From assembly GCA_001464695.1 (NCBI GenBank), contig LNDQ01000114.1, positions 62,001-126,000 of the forward strand: 64,000 nt of DNA, in the 5' to 3' direction. Below are positions 3,291 through 64,000 of this stretch, piece after piece. The stretch is from Betaproteobacteria bacterium Ga0077523 (GTDB taxonomy: Bacteria; Pseudomonadota; Gammaproteobacteria; Burkholderiales; Ga0077523). The notes below the pieces were generated by a model. It had not been told where the DNA came from, made no database searches, and saw nothing but the letters and a program-made list of their open reading frames with translations. The number at the start of each line of letters is the position of its first letter. Position 1 is the first letter of the stretch. The translations under genes and the position numbers were made by a program.

Positions 3291-3367
<77 letters not shown>

Positions 3368-54997: not shown

Positions 54998-57133
54998 ATG
55001 GGCCGCGACCCGCGCTTCGACATCCTGTTCGAACCGGTCCGCATCGGACCGGTGACGGCGCGCAACCGCTTCTATCAGGTACCGCACTGCAACGGCATGG
55101 GGTATCGCGACCCCACCGCCCTCGCAACGATGCGCGGCATCAAGGCCGAAGGCGGCTGGGCGGTGGTCTGCACCGAGCAGGTGGAAATCCACTACAGCTC
55201 CGAGATCACACCCTTCATCGAATTGCGCTTGTGGGACGACCGCGACATCCCGGCGCTGGCCCGCATGGCCGACGCAGTGCATCGTCACGATGCGCTGGCC
55301 GGCATCGAGCTCTGCTACAACGGCATGAACGGCTCGAATCTCTGGTCGCGCGAAGTGCCCATGGGACCCGCGCATCTGCCGGTCGCGACGTTCACCTACG
55401 ATCCGGTGCAGGCGCGTGCCATGACCAAGCGCGATATCGCGAATCTGCGCCGATGGCATCGTGCTGCGGCGTTGCGCGCGAAGCGCGCCGAGTTCGACAT
55501 CGTGTATGTATACGCTGGTCACGCGCTGGGAGGCCTGCACCACTTTCTGTCGCGCCGCTACAACGATCGCACCGACGAATACGGCGGCAGCCTCGAGAAT
55601 CGACTGCGCCTGTTGCGTGAGGTCATCGAAGACACGGTCGAGGCAGTCGGTGACCGCAGCGCCGTCGCGGTGCGCGTCACCGTCGACGAGTTGGTAGGGG
55701 ACGATGGTCTGACGCGCGCGGAGATGGAAGACGCGTTCGGTCTGGTCGGCGAACTGCCCGATCTGTGGGATCTGGTGCTGGGCTCGTGGGAAGACGACAG
55801 CCGCACGTCGCGCTTCGCCGAGGAGGGGTTCCAGGAACCTTTCGTCGCCGGTTTCAAGAAGCTCACCACCAAACCCGTGGTGGGCGTGGGACGCTTCACG
55901 TCGCCGGATGCCATGGTGCGCCAGGTGCAGGCCGGCATCCTCGACCTGATCGGCTGTGCGCGCCCGTCGATCGCCGATCCGCACTTGCCTCGCAAGGTGG
56001 AAGAGGGGCGCATCGAAGACGTCCGCGAGTGCATCGGCTGCAACATCTGCGTGTCGGGTGACTTCACGCAATCGCCGATCCGCTGCACCCAGAATCCGTC
56101 CATGGGCGAAGAGTGGCGCCGCGGCTGGCATCCCGAGCGCATCCGGCCGCGGGCTTCCGAAGCGAACGTGTTGATCGTGGGTGCCGGTCCGGCGGGGCTG
56201 GAAGCGGCGATGATGCTGGGCCGGCGTGGCTATGAAGTGGCGCTGGCCGAAGCGGGGCGCGAACTGGGTGGACGCGTCGTCCGCGAAGCACGCCTGCCAG
56301 GACTCGCCGCATGGCGGCGTGTGGCCGACTACCGCACCGGTCAACTGGTCCGCATGCCAGGTGTCGCAAGTTTTCTGGGCAGTCCGCTGTCGGCCGACGA
56401 TATCCTGGCATTCGGCTTCAGCCATATCGCCATCGCGACCGGTGCGCGCTGGCGGCGTGACGGCGTGGGCCGCCTGCACACGCGACCGATCGCGATCGAC
56501 GGGGCCATGGAAGTACTGGATCCCGATCAGCTCATGGCAGGAAAGCGGCCGCGCGGCCGAGACGTCGTACTGTTCGACGACGATCACTACTATCTCGGTG
56601 GTGTCCTCGCGGAACTGCTCGTCACGCTCGGTTGCCGAGTACGGCTCGTCACCGCGGCTGCGCGTGTCTCTGACTGGACCTGGAACACCATGGAGCAGCA
56701 CCGCATCCAGGCGCGGCTGCTGGAGCTCGGTGTCGTGATCGACGCCAATCGGGGTCTGCAGCGCGTCCTGGCGGACAGCGTTGAGGTGGCGTGTCGATAT
56801 ACAGGACGCACCGAAGCCATCGGTTGCGATTGCGTGGTGCTGGTGACGGCGCGCCTGCCGGATGACGCCTTGTGCCAGGCACTGCTTGCGCGCGAAGCCG
56901 ATTGGGCAGATGCCGGCATCGCGCAGGTCGAGGCCATCGGCGACGCGCTTGCCCCGGCGACCATCGCGCATGCGGTGTACTCGGGCCGACGGTACGCGGA
57001 GGATTTCGACCGCCCCGCACACGATGGCGACACCTTGCCGTTCCGCCGAGAGATCGTGGAACTCGCGCATCCAGCGCCCTCGGCACCGCTCGCGGACGTG
57101 CGCATGCCGCCTGCTGTTGTGACCCCTGGCTGA
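54998..57133 (+). CDS. Trimethylamine/histamine dehydrogenase-like iron-sulfur flavoprotein
   Basis: 711 residues. Old-yellow-enzyme barrel (1-330) with RNRFYQVPHCNG: C31 corresponds to the cysteine that forms 6-S-cysteinyl-FMN. A [4Fe-4S] motif (C345, C348, C351, C363) is followed by GEEWRRGWHPE. The C-terminal ADP/FAD-type domains have VLIVGAGPAGLEAAMMLGRRGY. Closely matches TMADH in layout, but the TMADH substrate-pocket Tyr60 is Gln61 here and the Trp355 region differs, so another secondary or tertiary amine, or an unsaturated intermediate, is more likely. 7 bp after the LysR gene. Confidence 0.9.
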   Translation: MGRDPRFDILFEPVRIGPVTARNRFYQVPHCNGMGYRDPTALATMRGIKAEGGWAVVCTEQVEIHYSSEITPFIELRLWDDRDIPALARMADAVHRHDALAGIELCYNGMNGSNLWSREVPMGPAHLPVATFTYDPVQARAMTKRDIANLRRWHRAAALRAKRAEFDIVYVYAGHALGGLHHFLSRRYNDRTDEYGGSLENRLRLLREVIEDTVEAVGDRSAVAVRVTVDELVGDDGLTRAEMEDAFGLVGELPDLWDLVLGSWEDDSRTSRFAEEGFQEPFVAGFKKLTTKPVVGVGRFTSPDAMVRQVQAGILDLIGCARPSIADPHLPRKVEEGRIEDVRECIGCNICVSGDFTQSPIRCTQNPSMGEEWRRGWHPERIRPRASEANVLIVGAGPAGLEAAMMLGRRGYEVALAEAGRELGGRVVREARLPGLAAWRRVADYRTGQLVRMPGVASFLGSPLSADDILAFGFSHIAIATGARWRRDGVGRLHTRPIAIDGAMEVLDPDQLMAGKRPRGRDVVLFDDDHYYLGGVLAELLVTLGCRVRLVTAAARVSDWTWNTMEQHRIQARLLELGVVIDANRGLQRVLADSVEVACRYTGRTEAIGCDCVVLVTARLPDDALCQALLAREADWADAGIAQVEAIGDALAPATIAHAVYSGRRYAEDFDRPAHDGDTLPFRREIVELAHPAPSAPLADVRMPPAVVTPG

Positions 57134-57134
57134 C

Positions 57135-58376
57135 ATGGTTCCCGACGATTCGTATGGGCCGACAGGGGCGCCTGATGCGCTGCTCGACGAAGCCATCGTC
57201 CTGCTCGCGCAGCTCGTGGCATTTCCCACGGTCAGCAGCGCAAGCAATCTCGATCTGATCGCCTGGGTGCGCGCGTATCTCGCAACGTTCGGCGTTGCCG
57301 CCGAAACATTCCCCAACGAAGATGGCACCAAGGCGAGTCTCTGGGCGACGATCGGCGACGCGTCTGTGCCGGGCGTCGTGCTGTCGGGTCACACCGACGT
57401 GGTGCCGGTGTCCGGACAACGCTGGACGCGCGAGCCCTTCACCCTCGGCGTCGAGGGCGAACGGTACTACGGGCGCGGCACGGCGGACATGAAGGGCTTC
57501 ATTGCGTGCGTGCTCGCGGTGTTGCCGAGGCTCAAGGCGCGCGGCCTGCCGTTGCCGGTTCACCTGGCACTTTCGTACGACGAGGAAGTCGGTTGTCTCG
57601 GCGTGCGTCCCATGCTGGCGCAGGTCGCGCAGCGGCGACCGCTGCCGGTGGGTGTGATCATCGGCGAGCCCACCAGCGGCCGACCCGTTACCGCGCACAA
57701 GGGGAAGGTCGCGGTGCGCTGCGACGTGCATGGCCGGGCGGCGCATTCCGCCTATGCTCCGCAGGGCGTCAACGCTGTGGAGAAGGCGGCGCGCCTCATC
57801 GTGGCCATCGAAGGCATGGCGCGCGAGTTTGCCGATAGCGGACCGCGCGATGCGCGCTTCGATCCGCCGTATGCGACGGCCCAAACGGGCGTCGTGAGCG
57901 GCGGCAACAGCGTCAATGTCGTACCGGCCCGATCCAGCTTCAGCTTCGAAGCGCGGTCCACGGATGAATCCGAACTCGATCGGTTCGTCGACGCGGTGCG
58001 CGCCGCCGCTGAACGCGATGTCCTGCCCGCAATGAGGGCCGTGGCCCCGGAGTCGGACGTGCGCTTCGAAGTGCTGACGCGCTATCCTGGACTGCGGACG
58101 TCCGACGCCGAGGCAATTGTCGCGCTCGCGATGGCAGCGGCTGGGGCGCACGATTGCGGCGTGATCAGTTTCGGCTCGGAAGGCGGGCTGTTCGCCGCTG
58201 CCGGCATTCCTGCCGTCATCTGCGGGCCGGGCAGCATGGACCAGGGCCACAAGCCCGACGAGTTCGTCACCCGTGCGGACTTGCGGCAATGCCTCGCGTT
58301 CCTGCTGGAACTGGGCGAACGGCTCGCGCGCGGTCAGTCTGCCACCGCGAACCTGGGTTCGATCAGCGTCGGGTAG
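57135..58376 (+). CDS. ArgE/DapE-type M20 deacylase
   Basis: 413 residues. M20 metallopeptidase: VVLSGHTDVVPVSGQRW (zinc His/Asp), GRGTADMKGFIACVLAVL (bridging Asp), LALSYDEEVGCLGVRPML (catalytic Glu), GEPTSGRPVTAHKGK and HGRAAHSAYAPQGVNAVEKAARLI (dimer domain His), and the C-terminal metal His in GSMDQGHKPDEF. The ArgE subgroup removes acyl groups from N-acyl amino acids. Starts 1 bp after the amine-dehydrogenase-like gene; its 3' end overlaps the convergent binding-protein gene by 43 bp. Confidence 0.9.
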   Translation: MVPDDSYGPTGAPDALLDEAIVLLAQLVAFPTVSSASNLDLIAWVRAYLATFGVAAETFPNEDGTKASLWATIGDASVPGVVLSGHTDVVPVSGQRWTREPFTLGVEGERYYGRGTADMKGFIACVLAVLPRLKARGLPLPVHLALSYDEEVGCLGVRPMLAQVAQRRPLPVGVIIGEPTSGRPVTAHKGKVAVRCDVHGRAAHSAYAPQGVNAVEKAARLIVAIEGMAREFADSGPRDARFDPPYATAQTGVVSGGNSVNVVPARSSFSFEARSTDESELDRFVDAVRAAAERDVLPAMRAVAPESDVRFEVLTRYPGLRTSDAEAIVALAMAAAGAHDCGVISFGSEGGLFAAAGIPAVICGPGSMDQGHKPDEFVTRADLRQCLAFLLELGERLARGQSATANLGSISVG

Positions 58377-59314
58377 TCGATGTCCATCTTGAGCTTGCCG
58401 AGCGTGCTCCAGACCTGGCTGCCCAGCTTGAGCAGGTCCGCGGCCTGCCCCGGGCTCGACGGCGTCCCGAAGAAAGCCACGTTCATCGGCTTGTCGAAGA
58501 ACCGCACGCCCTTCGCTGCATCGGCGAAGTCCTTCGGTTCCTTGAGGAATCCGCCGACACCCTTCGCCATGATGCCGTAGGACTTGGTCGGGTTCTTCTT
58601 CATGTACTCGATGGCCTTGTAGTACCCGTTCACCAGGGCGGCGACGTCGGCCGGGCGCTTCTCGATGACATCGCACGACAGCGCCACGACGTCCACGATG
58701 ACGCCGGGGCTCGCGGAGCTGTCGATCAGCACGCGCCCCTGCTTCTTCTTGCGCACCAGCGACAAGTGCGGTTCCCAGGTCACGGCCACCGGAACACGCT
58801 TCGCGATGAAGGCAGCGGCGGCGTCGTCCGCAGTCATGTTGGCGACCTTCACGTCCGCCGGTGTCATGCCCTCCTTGGCGAGCAGGATGCTGAACCAGAA
58901 CTGCGAGGTGGAGCCTTCGTTCATCGCCACGGTCTTGCCCTTCAGGTCCTTCACGGACTTGATGTCGCCGTTTACCAGAACGCCGTCACCGCCGTGGCTT
59001 TCGTCGAGCGCCAGCACGGTCTTGAAGCACATCTCGGGCGAGCGGTATTTCATGATCTCGTCGAGGGTCGAAGCGTCGCCGTCGAGGTTGCCACCGGCCA
59101 TCGCGGTCATGATGAGCGAACCTTCCTCGATGGTGCGCAGGTCCACTTCGAGACCGTTCTCCTTGAAGTACCCGAGGTCACGCGCGAGGTAAAGCGGCCC
59201 GTAGCCGACCCAGGTGGTGTGACCGATGCGCAGCTTGCCGGCAGACGCATCGGTGATGGCGAGGGCGAGGAGGGCGGCCGCGAACAACGCGGTCCGGATG
59301 CAAGACTTAGACAT
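58334..59314 (-). CDS. NitT/TauT-type ABC transporter substrate-binding protein (orphan)
   Basis: 326 residues. Signal MSKSCIRTALFAAALLALAITDASA; RIGHTTWVGYGPLYLARDLGYFKENGLEVDL and LKGKTVAMNEGSTSQFWFSILLAKEGM are typical of NMT1/TauA-like periplasmic binding proteins. Likely ligands are small zwitterions, sulfonates or guanidino/ureido compounds. No permease or ATPase accompanies it; it might share the transporter at 62076-64000, whose binding protein is a distant paralogue. The ATG at 59314 is chosen for the signal peptide. Confidence 0.87.
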   Translation of the reverse strand: MSKSCIRTALFAAALLALAITDASAGKLRIGHTTWVGYGPLYLARDLGYFKENGLEVDLRTIEEGSLIMTAMAGGNLDGDASTLDEIMKYRSPEMCFKTVLALDESHGGDGVLVNGDIKSVKDLKGKTVAMNEGSTSQFWFSILLAKEGMTPADVKVANMTADDAAAAFIAKRVPVAVTWEPHLSLVRKKKQGRVLIDSSASPGVIVDVVALSCDVIEKRPADVAALVNGYYKAIEYMKKNPTKSYGIMAKGVGGFLKEPKDFADAAKGVRFFDKPMNVAFFGTPSSPGQAADLLKLGSQVWSTLGKLKMDIDYPTLIEPRFAVAD

Positions 59315-59598
59315 GAAGGTCCCCTGGTTCGTGAATGCCGGTTCGGACGACGCGACGGTGCGATGTCCCGTGGATCCGTGCATGCAAACTTCGATCGCAC
59401 CCCGGGAGTTTTTTTCGATCCGCTGCGTCGGAAATCTCGATGGAGCCTTCGCATCGAGGGGTACGCCTCATGCGACACTGATTGCAGCGAAGCGCAAGCG
59501 CCGCGCGGATGCCTTCCCGACGGCTCTTGTGCGCCCGAATGCAGTGCCGGCAGTCGCCGATCCGCGCTGATTCGGTGCACTTCAGCCAGGAGAACGCA

Positions 59599-61725
59599 GT
59601 GACGATCGACCAGAATGTCGTCGAAGACGGGAGCCGGGTGTTCCACGGGGCCTGTCCGCACGACTGTCCCGACACCTGCGCAGTCGAAGTGAAGGTCCGC
59701 GATGGTCGGGTCGTAGGCGTGCGCGGGCGGCACGATCACCCGTTCACCGACGGGCGCCTGTGCGTCAAGGTGAACCACTTCGAGGAACGCGTGAACCATC
59801 CGGACCGCGTGCTGTACCCGCTGCGCCGCACCGGGCCGAAGGGCGGCGGGCAGTTCGAACGCGTCGCGTGGAGCGAGGCGATCGCAGAGATCGGCAACCG
59901 CTGGCGGGCCATCATCGCGGACCAGGGAGCACAGGCGATCCTGCCCTGCGGTTACCTGGGCAACCTCGGCCTGTTGCAAGGTCTCAACGTCGGCGATCCG
60001 TTCTTCAATCGTCTCGGAGCCACCGTGTCCGAACGCAGTTTCTGCGGGTCAGGTGCTACCACCGGCACGCTCATGACGCTCGGAGCCACTCCCGGGACCG
60101 AGCCGGAGAGCTTCGTGCATTCGCGTTACATCATCCTTTGGGCCTGCAACCTCATCAGCACCGGCGGGCATCACTGGCCGTTCATCGCCGAAGCGCGGCG
60201 CCGCGGAGCGAAGATTGTCGTCATCGATCCGGTGCGGGGGCGCACCGCGCGGCAGGCGGATTGGCATCTGCCGATCCGGCCCGGCACCGATGGCGCGCTG
60301 GCGCTCGCTCTGGTGAACGTGCTCGCTACCGAAGGGTTGGTCGATCGGGATTACATCGATCGCCACTCGACCGGCTTCGAAGCGCTCGTCACGCGGGCCG
60401 CCAAGTACACACCAGAGCACGTCGCTGCCATAACAGGCCTCGCGGCCGACGACATCCGGTGCCTCGCGCGCGAGTACGCTGCGGCGCAGCCCTCGGTGAT
60501 CCGCATTGGCGTGGCACTCGAGCGTCATCCCGGTGGCGGCAATGCTGCACGGTTGATCGCCGGATTGCCGGCGCTCGTCGGGGCCTGGCGGCACGTGGGA
60601 GGTGGCTTCCTGTACATGCCCATCGCGGCTTTCCCTGTGCACTGGGACCGGCTGATGCGCCCCGAGCTGTTGCCCGCGCCACCGCGCGTACTCAATCTGT
60701 GGAAGCTCGGCGCAGCCCTCTCAGGGCGTCTGCCGCTGGATCCTCCCATCCGGTCCCTCTTCGTCTACAACTGCAATCCGGCGGTCACCTTGCCGCGGCA
60801 GGACTGGATCATGGAAGGACTTGCCCGCGACGACCTGTTCACGGTGGTGAGCGAGCATTTCCTCACCGACACCGCGCGGTACGCCGATCTGGTGCTGCCG
60901 GCGACCATGCAACCGGAGCACCTTGACGTGGTGGTGCCGTGGGGTCACCTGTACCTCACGTACAACGCGCGTGCCGTGGCCGCAGCGGGCGAAGCCGTAC
61001 CGAACACCGAGCTGTTCCGGCGGCTCGCGCGCGAGATGGAGTTCGACGACGCATGCTTTCGCGCGACCGATCGCGAACTGCTCGAGCAGTCGTTCGACTG
61101 GTCGCACCCCGCGCTGGCGGACATCGATCTCGAGCGCCTGGAACGCGAGGGTTACGCCCGCCTCGCGCTACCCGACGCCGCACACTGGGCGCCCCATGCC
61201 GAGGGCGGCTTTCCGACCCCTTCGGGCCGGGTGGAATTTGCCGCGAGCCTCGCGGCGGATGGCAACTTCGTCGTGCCCGCCTATCGGCAAGGCCTCACGA
61301 CTCACCAGGATGGCGCCGCCGTGGCCGAAGTTCCCGAGTTCATCCCGCCGTGCGTCGATCCGGCCTACCCGCTGACGGTGTTGTCGCCGAAGTCGCATTT
61401 CTTCATCAACTCCAATTTCGCCAACGTTGCGCGGCAACTGGCGCATGCCGGGGAGCAGACCGTCACCATTCATCCAATCGATGCGGCGGCCCGCGGGGTT
61501 GGGGACGGCGATCGCGTCGAAGTGCGCAACGCACGAGGTGCCTTCCAGGGCACAGCACGCCTTTCCGAAGACGTGCTGCCGAGCGTCGTGTTGACCGTGC
61601 TGGGCCACTGGCCGGGCCGATCGGCTGGCGGTCGCGGCGTGAACGCCGTGACCGATGACGCCTATGCCGATCTCGGCCGAGCCCCCTTGTTCTCCGACAC
61701 GCGGGTGGAAATCCGCCGGTTGTGA
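59599..61725 (+). CDS. Molybdopterin-dependent oxidoreductase (DMSO-reductase family)
   Basis: 708 residues from a GTG (59599) with CAGGAGAA upstream. N-terminal [4Fe-4S] ligands C19, C23, C27 and C55 (ACPHDCPDTCAVEV...GRLCVK), MGD-binding domains (YIILWACNLISTGGHHWPFI, VIDPVRGRTARQADW, RPGTDGALALALVNVL) and the C-terminal barrel (LTVLSPKSHFFINSNFAN, VEVRNARGAF). No Tat signal is visible, so it is cytoplasmic. It belongs to the group loosely annotated as formate-dehydrogenase-like or 'anaerobic dehydrogenase'; the substrate is unknown. Confidence 0.88.
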   Translation: MTIDQNVVEDGSRVFHGACPHDCPDTCAVEVKVRDGRVVGVRGRHDHPFTDGRLCVKVNHFEERVNHPDRVLYPLRRTGPKGGGQFERVAWSEAIAEIGNRWRAIIADQGAQAILPCGYLGNLGLLQGLNVGDPFFNRLGATVSERSFCGSGATTGTLMTLGATPGTEPESFVHSRYIILWACNLISTGGHHWPFIAEARRRGAKIVVIDPVRGRTARQADWHLPIRPGTDGALALALVNVLATEGLVDRDYIDRHSTGFEALVTRAAKYTPEHVAAITGLAADDIRCLAREYAAAQPSVIRIGVALERHPGGGNAARLIAGLPALVGAWRHVGGGFLYMPIAAFPVHWDRLMRPELLPAPPRVLNLWKLGAALSGRLPLDPPIRSLFVYNCNPAVTLPRQDWIMEGLARDDLFTVVSEHFLTDTARYADLVLPATMQPEHLDVVVPWGHLYLTYNARAVAAAGEAVPNTELFRRLAREMEFDDACFRATDRELLEQSFDWSHPALADIDLERLEREGYARLALPDAAHWAPHAEGGFPTPSGRVEFAASLAADGNFVVPAYRQGLTTHQDGAAVAEVPEFIPPCVDPAYPLTVLSPKSHFFINSNFANVARQLAHAGEQTVTIHPIDAAARGVGDGDRVEVRNARGAFQGTARLSEDVLPSVVLTVLGHWPGRSAGGRGVNAVTDDAYADLGRAPLFSDTRVEIRRL

Positions 61726-62075
61726 ACTCCCCTGCGCCGCCATAAGTTGGTGCGCATGCTTCGTTTCATGCGCCAATTTGGTGCCGGATTCGACGGACAC
61801 TTGGGCTATCTCCGTGAATACAAAGGCGTGTGGCGTGCCGCCTGCGATGGCATGCCGATTGCGATTTCCGTCGCCCGAGAGGAGAGCGACGCACACTTCG
61901 CTTCCTGTCGTTGTCGGCTAGGGTTCCGGGCGCTCGAAGCGCTGCTGGTCCGAGAGCCGACGGTCCTGCCGGCGTTCACGGTGGGGCTCCACGGAGGGAC
62001 AAAAGCCCGGGAGGCCGAGTGGTGCGCTAGCCAAACCTCTCCCGCTGTTCCCACGTGCCTTCCGAGGAGTCCCCC
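61726..62075. other. Leader region of the ABC importer operon
   Basis: 350 bp between the molybdoenzyme and the binding-protein gene. It holds a weak hairpin at 61747-61776 (possible end of the preceding transcript), then the guanidine-I aptamer, then a 50-nt expression platform ending in GAGGAG (62064-62069) before the ATG at 62076. Small open frames here are not called because they run through the structured RNA. Confidence 0.75.
61908..62024 (+). promoter_or_regulatory. ykkC / guanidine-I riboswitch
   Basis: Conserved aptamer blocks appear in order: CTAGGGTTCCG (61918-61928), CTGGTCCGAGAG (61945-61956) and ACGGAGGGACAAAAGCCCGG (61991-62010) followed by GAGG. Closing helix P1 is TCGG (61914-61917) with CCGA (62015-62018). 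These match the ykkC subtype 1 consensus as I know it. Gene context, a NitT/TauT-type ABC importer immediately downstream, is a recurrent one for this class. Guanidine binding is predicted, not shown; ykkC subtype 2 (ppGpp/PRPP/nucleotide) is the main alternative. Confidence 0.87.
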
Positions 62076-63059
62076 ATGCCAGCAACGCCCAAATTCTGCC
62101 GCGGACTCGCCGCGGTGCTCGCCGGTCTCGTGCTGTTCGTCGGTGCGGCGCGCGCCGAGATCAAGGTCGGCTACAGCGACTGGCCGGGCTGGGTCGCCTG
62201 GGCCATCGCCGAACAGCAGGGCTTCTTCAAGAAGCACGGCGCGAACGTCAAGCTGGTCTGGTTTCCCAACTACTCCGATTCGATATCGGCCTTGTCGTCG
62301 GGACAGCTGGATGCCAATTGCCAGACCTGGTCCGACACCATGGCCCCGCTCGCCAAGGGTATCCCGCTCAAGGTCGTATTGGTGAACGACAACTCGGCCG
62401 GCAACGATGCCTTGATGGCCGCGCCCAAGTACAAGGGCGTGAAGGATCTCAAGGGAAAGACCATCGCGCTCGAGGAGTTCAGCATTTCGCACTTCGTGCT
62501 GGCCACCGCACTCGCGAGGAACGGCATGTCGCAGAAGGACGTGAAGGTCGTGAACCTGTCCGCAGGCGATGCGGCGGCGGCATTCCTGAGCGGCCGGGTG
62601 GACGCGGCCACTGTCTGGAATCCCTGGGTGAACAAGATCGAACTCTCGGGCAAGGGCAAGGCGCTGTTCACGTCCAAGGATATGCCCGGCCTCGTCCCCG
62701 ATCTGCTGGTGGCCCAGGAGAAATCACTCGCTGCGCACCGGGCCGATTTCGTCGGCATGGTGAAGGCGTGGTTCGAGGTGGAAAAGTTCATCCGCGAGAA
62801 ACCGGACGAGGCCGTGAAGATCATGGCGAAGGTGGTGGAACTCGCTCCCGAGGAATACAAGGTCTTCCTGCCCGGCACCCGATTCTTCGGCGAAAAGGAC
62901 AATATCGACGCGCTCGGACCCGCCTCGACGCCGCACTCCCTGCTCGCGACGGCGCCGGTGATCGTCAAGTTCCTGGAAGAGAACAAGCTGATCGAAGGCA
63001 AACCCGACTTCGCCAAGGCGATCGACGCATCGCTGGTGAAGGAAGTCGCGAAGAAATGA
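62076..63059 (+). CDS. NitT/TauT-type ABC transporter substrate-binding protein (riboswitch-controlled)
   Basis: 327 residues. Signal MPATPKFCRGLAAVLAGLVLFVGAARA; EIKVGYSDWPGWVAWAIAEQQGFFKKHGANVKLVWFPNYSDSISALSSGQLDANCQTWSDTMA and LKGKTIALEEFSISHFVL give the NMT1/TauA-like two-lobe fold. Under the guanidine-I riboswitch, so the probable ligand is guanidine or a close relative (urea, guanidino compounds). ATG at 62076 after GAGGAG. Permease and ATPase follow. Confidence 0.9.
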   Translation: MPATPKFCRGLAAVLAGLVLFVGAARAEIKVGYSDWPGWVAWAIAEQQGFFKKHGANVKLVWFPNYSDSISALSSGQLDANCQTWSDTMAPLAKGIPLKVVLVNDNSAGNDALMAAPKYKGVKDLKGKTIALEEFSISHFVLATALARNGMSQKDVKVVNLSAGDAAAAFLSGRVDAATVWNPWVNKIELSGKGKALFTSKDMPGLVPDLLVAQEKSLAAHRADFVGMVKAWFEVEKFIREKPDEAVKIMAKVVELAPEEYKVFLPGTRFFGEKDNIDALGPASTPHSLLATAPVIVKFLEENKLIEGKPDFAKAIDASLVKEVAKK

Positions 63060-63085
63060 TTCCGCAACAGCCGGCATAGACGACC

Positions 63086-63898
63086 ATGGCATCGATTTCC
63101 CTCGCGCGGCCCGGCATCTGGGCAATCCGCGGCCCCATGAGCCAGCGGCGCTACTGGCTGTTCGCGGCCATCGGCTTGATCGCGCCGATCGTCCTCTGGT
63201 GGCTGGTCGCCAACTCCGGCTGGGTCGAGAAGGTGTTCATGCCCACGCCGGGATCGGTCTGGTCGCGCACCGCGCTCTGGTGGACCGAGGACAACCTGCT
63301 GCAGGACGCCGGCATCAGCATGTATCGCGTGACGGCGGGCTGGCTGCTGTCGGCGGTGATCGCGATGCCGATCGGCTTGTTGATCGGGACGTTCCGTCCG
63401 GTGCAGGCGCTGCTCGAACCGCTGACCGATTTCGTCCGCTACATGCCGGCGGTCGCATTCATTCCGCTGGTGATGCTGTGGATCGGCATCGACGAAGGTT
63501 CCAAGGTGGCCATCATCTTCATCGGCACCTTCTTCCAGATGGTGCTGATGGTGGCGGAGGATGTGCGCCGGGTGCCTGCCGCGCAGATCGAAGCCGCGCA
63601 GACCATGGGTGCCACGCGCATGGAGATCATCCAGCTGGTGCTGCTGCCGTCGGCCAAGCCGGCCCTGGTCGACACACTGCGGATCACCATGGGATGGGCA
63701 TGGACCTACCTGGTGGTCGCCGAACTCGTCGCCGCCAACTCGGGCCTCGGCTACGCGATCCTCAAGGCACAACGCTTTCTCCAGACCGACAAGATCTTCG
63801 CCGGCATCATCCTGATCGGGCTGATCGGGCTGGTCATCGACCAGCTGTTCCGACTTCTTCACCGCAGGGCATTCCCGTGGATGCACAAAAAGTCGTAA
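63086..63898 (+). CDS. NitT/TauT-type ABC transporter permease
   Basis: 270 residues, six predicted membrane helices. BPD_transp_1 signature with the EAA loop EAAQTMGATRMEIIQLVLLPSAKPALVDTLRIT, plus VAELVAANSGLGYAILKAQ. Inner-membrane subunit of the importer; 26 bp after the binding-protein gene, and it overlaps the ATPase gene by 22 bp. The ATG at 63137 is an alternative start. Confidence 0.92.
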   Translation: MASISLARPGIWAIRGPMSQRRYWLFAAIGLIAPIVLWWLVANSGWVEKVFMPTPGSVWSRTALWWTEDNLLQDAGISMYRVTAGWLLSAVIAMPIGLLIGTFRPVQALLEPLTDFVRYMPAVAFIPLVMLWIGIDEGSKVAIIFIGTFFQMVLMVAEDVRRVPAAQIEAAQTMGATRMEIIQLVLLPSAKPALVDTLRITMGWAWTYLVVAELVAANSGLGYAILKAQRFLQTDKIFAGIILIGLIGLVIDQLFRLLHRRAFPWMHKKS

Positions 63899-64000
63899 CA
63901 ATCGCGCCGCGCATCCGCGTGCGCGCGCTCGGCAAGATCTTCGGCGACCCGCCGCACCAGGTCGAAGCGCTGAAGGACATCGATCTCGAAGTCTGCGACA
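63877..64000 (+). CDS. ABC transporter ATP-binding protein (partial, N-terminus)
   Basis: The first ~41 residues, from a GTG at 63877 inside the 3' end of the permease gene: VRALGKIFGDPPHQVEALKDIDLEVCD, the typical start of a NitT/TauT ATPase (A-loop region, before Walker A). Cut by the window edge. Completes the importer with the two genes upstream. Confidence 0.85.
   Translation, partial: MDAQKVVTIAPRIRVRALGKIFGDPPHQVEALKDIDLEVCD

Follow-up and report, generated by a model that had tools for sequence, protein, structure and literature searches.

What does the leader RNA close to the right-hand edge of this stretch of DNA from Betaproteobacteria bacterium Ga0077523 respond to, and what is handled by the proteins encoded behind it? 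The stretch, referred to below as the window, is 64,000 nucleotides long and corresponds to bases 62001-126000 of contig C114; the contig runs 12.4 kb further, and this part was examined as stretch L003. With a probability of roughly 0.92, the leader acts as a Guanidine-I ON-switch for an operon of guanidine assimilation, which consists of the riboswitch, an importer, deiminase-type subunits, a guanidine carboxylase and an allophanate hydrolase.

Regarding the RNA, the whole window was scanned with cmscan against Rfam 15, and matches at the gathering threshold were considered. Guanidine-I (RF00442) was detected on the plus strand against a gathering threshold of 63 bits (E 1.3e-13), covering positions 1-107 of the 107 in the model, and a tRNA at 3291-3364 is the only other match in the window at this threshold. 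Within 61850-62110, no Rfam family besides RF00442 was found at E <= 10. The first-pass annotation, which was made from the letters alone, had placed a Guanidine-I element in this leader from 61908 onwards, one base away from the Rfam start, and had described three ykkC blocks and a P1 helix. The blocks CTAGGGTTCCG, CTGGTCCGAGAG and ACGGAGGGACAAAAGCCCGGGAG as well as the helix are visible in the cmscan alignment, where no non-standard pair is marked, and the three blocks are invariant or near-invariant across 30 aligned Guanidine-I sequences. The annotation thus held up in the covariance comparison, with a score above the threshold and no assignment to subtype 2. The folding energy of the aptamer alone is no better than that of shuffled sequence (z 0.05) and is therefore uninformative, so that the support comes from the score of the covariance model and from the surrounding genes. 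The features of the region are as follows.

61907..62015, plus strand: Guanidine-I (ykkC subtype 1) riboswitch aptamer (RF00442, 84.5 bits, full-length)
62005..62072, plus strand: putative expression platform (fold z -1.72, duplex energies, no T-tract terminator seen)
62076..63059, plus strand: SBP1, a NitT/TauT (NMT1/SsuA-type) substrate-binding protein (PF09084, 4.7e-25; TIGR01728, 211.1 bits against a cut-off of 163.5)
63086..63898, plus strand: NitT/TauT-type ABC permease (PF00528, 8e-27; best NCBIfam match NF040733, 161.5 bits, below the cut-off of 295)
63877..64000, plus strand: ABC ATPase, start only, cut by the window edge (GTG 63877; PF00005, 7.4e-31, on L003:2895-3734)

The start of SBP1 was set at ATG 62076 behind GAGGAG, about 60 bases 3' of the aptamer (the list of open reading frames (ORFs) starts at GTG 62055). 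The GTG start of the ATPase overlaps the permease end, and its stop at L003:3737 would be window position 64737. An SsuA/NMT1 binding protein, a BPD permease and an ATPase in one operon constitute a NitT/TauT importer, and the matches to PF09084/TIGR01728, PF00528 and PF00005 downstream of the aptamer agree with the earlier description of the leader as that of a binding protein-permease-ATPase operon. Guanidine is the putative cargo of this importer.

The genes beyond the window edge point to the fate of this cargo. After the ATPase, L003 encodes on the same strand a pair of DUF1989 proteins, then a biotin-dependent carboxylase of 1198 residues, and an amidase whose C-terminal domain is of the allophanate-hydrolase type (AH_C). 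The DUF1989 pair adjoins the carboxylase and scores 194 and 234 bits with PF09347, as in the carboxyguanidine deiminase CgdAB; the NCBIfam assignment, for the first protein only, is TIGR03425 (333.5 bits against a cut-off of 205.95). The carboxylase matches TIGR02712 with 1890 bits (cut-off 1303.85). When it is aligned to 5i8i, an Asp faces Asn-1330 of the K. lactis urea amidolyase, the position that we take to be the diagnostic Asp/Asn residue. This Asp is found in 37/37 pattern matches among the fetched loci, some of which are the same contig fetched twice. Asp marks guanidine carboxylases and Asn urea carboxylases (PMC12186494). The DUF1989 pair, the guanidine-type Asp carboxylase and the allophanate hydrolase are the guanidine enzymes that the first-pass annotation had expected just past 64000. 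Imported guanidine would be carboxylated at the cost of ATP, carboxyguanidine would be deiminated to allophanate, and allophanate would be hydrolysed to ammonia and CO2.

The riboswitch-importer-carboxylase arrangement is already published (PMC12508155, Fig. 1 legend; PMC12186494). The Vreelandella (Halomonas) boliviensis operon likewise has Guanidine-I at its head and contains three ABC importer genes, one of them for a periplasmic binding protein, as well as cgdA/cgdB, gca and atzF (PMC12508155), and this matching layout assigns the window operon to a known kind. In contrast to that operon, no mgdH/mgdL genes were seen between carboxylase and amidase here, and its internal Guanidine-II has no equivalent by Rfam on L003 (PMC12508155). 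The Raoultella/Klebsiella operons share the importer and carboxyguanidine deiminase under Guanidine-I, followed by carboxylase and allophanate hydrolase, but have a Guanidine-II before the carboxylase, whereas Rfam shows none on L003 (PMC12186494). The Guanidine-I RNA of Vreelandella boliviensis binds guanidine with a dissociation constant of 44 uM (PMC12508155), and the RNA of the window presumably binds guanidine too. The window operon would add one Burkholderiales-type metagenome genus to the known guanidine users and give the transporter a putative function.

An ON-switch is expected from the Guanidine-I class, with transcriptional or translational action both being possible. Intracellular guanidine would stabilise the aptamer, the stabilised aptamer would release the downstream sequence otherwise paired with the aptamer 3' arm, and this release would allow the operon to be expressed. 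The 3' arm GCCCGGGAGGCCG (62005-62017) can pair with CCTCTCCC (62036-62043), about 20 bases downstream, at -11.8 kcal/mol, or alternatively with the Shine-Dalgarno-bearing stretch CCTTCCGAGG (62058-62067) at -19.7 kcal/mol, and a complement to the arm within about 40 bases was recognised by eye in ten leaders. Several results weigh against the assignment of this locus to a Guanidine-I ON-switch with a guanidine importer. Guanidine-I is usually a terminator switch, but the terminator scan gave no U-tract terminator 3' of the aptamer on the plus strand, its sole site being on the minus strand. When the arm was held unpaired in the fold, the Shine-Dalgarno stretch was not freed (mean unpaired 0.10 vs 0.11); thus, a simple Shine-Dalgarno-masking model is unsupported by this calculation and was set aside. 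In addition, SBP1 scores 159.8 bits with TIGR03427 (ABC_peri_uca), the model of a "putative urea" ABC binding protein, and thus does not reach the cut-off of 333.9.

The same genome contains a second Guanidine-I (C89:117703-117808, 82.8 bits), behind which lie another substrate-binding protein (SBP2), a membrane fatty-acid-desaturase-family protein (FADS) and a short-chain dehydrogenase (SDR).

L005:703-4221 (contig C89), apparently continuing on L095 (contig C54): second riboswitch with SBP2, FADS and SDR (Rfam, gene families)

The distribution of both operons bears on the cargo of the importer. Guanidine-I above the cut-off occurs in 18 of 150 genomes of the order and in 9 of 12 of the family, the window's own included. 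Among the 18 riboswitch genomes of the order, carboxylase or DUF1989 pathway genes were found behind Guanidine-I in 16, in the stretches fetched; the exceptions are G016, which has the importer only, and G114, an assembly of short contigs with neither importer nor pathway genes. In eight genomes (G023, G047, G049, G058, G071, G091, G126 and G155), the permease begins 93-179 bases after the carboxylase-operon Guanidine-I, leaving no room for a binding protein, and SBP2 is present elsewhere in all eight (order and family samples; in G071 also via L166). Therefore, the window-type permease and ATPase probably work with SBP2 in these genomes, and in the window genome they perhaps work with both SBP1 and SBP2. 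Ten genomes have an SBP1-type gene in the carboxylase operon, and six of them also have SBP2; the other four (G014, G016, G029 and G153) each have a single Guanidine-I match, and no SBP2 was seen in the sequence fetched around it. In two related genomes (L087:3285-3937 and L088:9775-10387), two Guanidine-I elements stand back to back before both operons, which diverge.

These counts concern the rival explanation that survives best, namely that the main cargo of the importer is a substituted guanidine of the methylguanidine or creatinine class and that free guanidine is merely the inducer. The 8/8 co-occurrence of SBP2 with a carboxylase operon too tight to hold a binding-protein gene, together with one permease that probably serves SBP2, favours this explanation, but in the window genome the carboxylase operon includes an SBP1 of its own, and the four SBP1-type genomes out of ten in which no SBP2 was seen around their single Guanidine-I match argue against it as well; it is regarded as unlikely, albeit a serious contender. 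Assimilation of urea by a true urea carboxylase and a urea importer is very improbable. The curated names of TIGR02712 and TIGR03425 do say urea; however, the active-site residue is Asp rather than Asn, the operon is placed under Guanidine-I and contains two DUF1989 proteins, and the ORFs of contig C89, inspected by eye, include a cluster of urease genes together with an ABC transporter of the urea type, so that a urea route via the window operon would be redundant. The urea operon was rejected on the Asp residue and the gene context. Least credible of all is a ykkC subtype 2 riboswitch for guanosine tetraphosphate (ppGpp), phosphoribosyl pyrophosphate (PRPP) or a nucleotide, with an operon unrelated to guanidine: the PRPP and ppGpp riboswitches are relatives of Guanidine-I (PMC6031431), but RF00442 matches above its cut-off over the full length, guanidine carboxylase genes lie downstream, and the reading was discarded as no other family matches the leader at E <= 10 in a library whose coverage of subtype 2 is unconfirmed.

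With the window operon taken as a guanidine-assimilation operon, the role of the second riboswitch operon can be considered. The end of C89 lies in a second SDR gene, and the end of C54 overlaps C89 over 539 bases with 96.1% identity; C54 therefore probably continues the operon, although it may stem from a strain that differs slightly, and in the related genome G118 the same gene order stands on a single contig. Further genes on C54 encode a second FADS, a permease of the EamA type, a creatininase paralogue (CreA) and a BiuH-like amidase, in whose matched stretch one in-frame TAG was counted and which is 56% identical to the copy in L131. An MBL enzyme was not found in the operon stretch of the window genome, the best matches in the genome being 35% and 30% identical and on other contigs, which implies that MBL is unnecessary in some versions of the pathway. 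A TadA-like deaminase is part of the second operon in the window's genus (L062, L095), but it was matched in only one of the 80 database loci described below (L110, the query's own contig) and is therefore not a core component.

An even chance is given to the proposal that the second operon, with SBP2, a di-iron oxygenase, SDRs, EamA, CreA, the amidase and, in many relatives, a lactonase-like MBL, converts substituted guanidines (methylguanidine, creatine, creatinine) to guanidine, which the window operon would degrade, while SBP2 would feed the window-type permease and ATPase. The best guess for the putative substrate is a substituted guanidine of the methylguanidine or creatinine class, oxidised to guanidine. 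In such a route, the di-iron enzyme would hydroxylate a C-H bond next to the guanidine nitrogen, an SDR would oxidise the hydroxylated product, and amide hydrolysis would then release guanidine. The specific version, an enzymatic route from creatinine via methylguanidine to guanidine, is rather improbable.

FADS matches PF00487 with 116.3 vs 29.7 bits and contains the histidine motifs HX3H, HX2HH and HX2HH characteristic of membrane di-iron oxygenases, of which H60, H64, H99, H102, H103, H259, H262 and H263 are invariant in 25 sequences. The AlphaFold model of the L106 protein (87% identical to FADS, mean pLDDT 89.8) was aligned with AlkB (8sbb) over 255 residues, with Z 11.7 and a root-mean-square deviation of 4.6. 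Two FtsHi motor-complex chains score above AlkB (Z 18.8 and 17.9), and in Foldseek E <= 0.001 was obtained solely for two FtsHi motor-complex chains, AlkB being next at 0.029. CreA of L062, which shares 71% identity with the copy in the window genome, matches TIGR04448 with 359 bits (cut-off 235) and the creatininase 1j2t with 261.5 bits. At the position of Trp174, presumably the substrate-flap residue of creatininase, L062 has Phe whereas 1j2t has Trp, and of 68 alignments the 59 in which the motif was readable show Phe (45) or Tyr (14), some being the same contig fetched twice, suggesting that the substrate of CreA may differ from creatinine. The amidase of L131, encoded between CreA and the MBL gene, remains below the cut-off of NF050097 (BiuH), with 261.4 bits against 370; the biuret hydrolase superfamily includes guanylurea hydrolases (PMC9800807). 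Two proteins encoded near second operons, at L100:3177-3875 (minus strand) and L131:14756-15514, look alike by eye and have no Pfam or NCBIfam match.

The association of the di-iron gene with the riboswitch was assessed in GTDB genomes, which were scanned with an alignment of FADS proteins made mostly of riboswitch-linked members, the best 80 of 528 relatives being kept. A covariance model was built from 30 Guanidine-I sequences, and a same-strand element no more than 2.6 kb upstream of FADS was counted. Guanidine-I was found in this position in 69 of the 80 loci, among them L106, whose element is truncated where the contig stops (46.6 bits); as the 80 loci are biased to close relatives, this proportion overstates that of the whole family. 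SBP2 is present in 79/80 loci, the two SDR types in 58/80 and 59/80, the EamA permease in 55/80, the creatininase paralogue and the BiuH-like amidase in 57/80 each, and the MBL enzyme in 53/80, and carboxylase-pathway genes lie on the same locus in 34/80. Eleven loci lack a near element: L117 and L172 begin at a contig end, L166, L170, L175 and L183 follow a same-strand carboxylase operon, and in L171 the element lies further upstream, before the permease. The other four (L113, L114, L123 and L185) have no near element for no obvious reason.

In a less biased sample, which comprised 274 genomes from the class, the gene was found at E <= 1e-30 in 10, and neighbourhoods were fetched for nine of these. 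Guanidine-I or Guanidine-II occurs in 6/9; the distant L075, L077 and L097 (40-45% identical) show no guanidine riboswitch in the fetched neighbourhoods. In two distant genomes, Guanidine-II stands directly before the FADS-family gene (L074:8309-8356, L076:8412-8456), so that two riboswitch classes converge on one enzyme family. The creatininase paralogue is present at E <= 1e-60 in 11 of the 150 order genomes, 10 of which are among the 18 with Guanidine-I (Fisher p 4e-10, uncorrected for kinship; the 10 genomes span six families, f1, f10, f24, f39, f47 and f49). The second operon also lies behind Guanidine-I in records of Pseudomonas, Stutzerimonas, Hydrogenophaga, Polaromonas, Rhodoferax, Thiobacillus and Acidithiobacillus, and thereby names concrete candidate genes, several of them in cultured strains.

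A comparable known system is methylguanidine demethylation by MgdH/MgdL, with which the second operon shares a riboswitch-controlled oxygenase in genomes with the carboxylase pathway (PMC12508155). However, MgdH/MgdL is a soluble 2-oxoglutarate dioxygenase (PMC12508155), in contrast to the predicted membrane di-iron desaturase/AlkB-like enzyme, and the partners also differ, here being SDRs, a creatininase paralogue, a BiuH-like amidase and often MBL. GntB, the transmembrane L-arginine gamma-hydroxylase of guanitoxin biosynthesis, resembles FADS as a membrane enzyme and acts on a guanidino substrate (PMC10367076); FADS of the window genome scores 18.7 bits (E 9e-4) with the GntB profile NF041365, whose cut-off is 380, and the link is a hint only. 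Among the papers listed in the literature searched (guanidine riboswitches in combination with a desaturase, a creatininase or galegine; the tables of associated genes in the original riboswitch papers lay outside the search), no account of the second operon was found, and the mentions of a desaturase that were read referred to the arginine desaturase NapI or to a cobalamin riboswitch. The second operon is thus apparently undescribed.

Two genes shortly upstream of the second riboswitch (L004:15794-17000 to L005:450) encode a DUF1989 protein and a 2-oxoglutarate Fe(II) oxygenase. This pair was considered as an MgdH-like system and rejected, as the oxygenase matched only this genome among the mapped loci; the DUF1989 protein has one further match there, 31% identical, in L130. 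A CN-hydrolase is also encoded on contig C89. Within the window, the region directly before the first riboswitch (54998-61725) contains a gene cluster for an OYE-family flavoenzyme, an acetylornithine-deacetylase-type hydrolase, a molybdopterin oxidoreductase and, encoded on the opposite strand, an orphan binding protein of the NMT1 type; the molybdopterin oxidoreductase holds the same place in L079 (G118).

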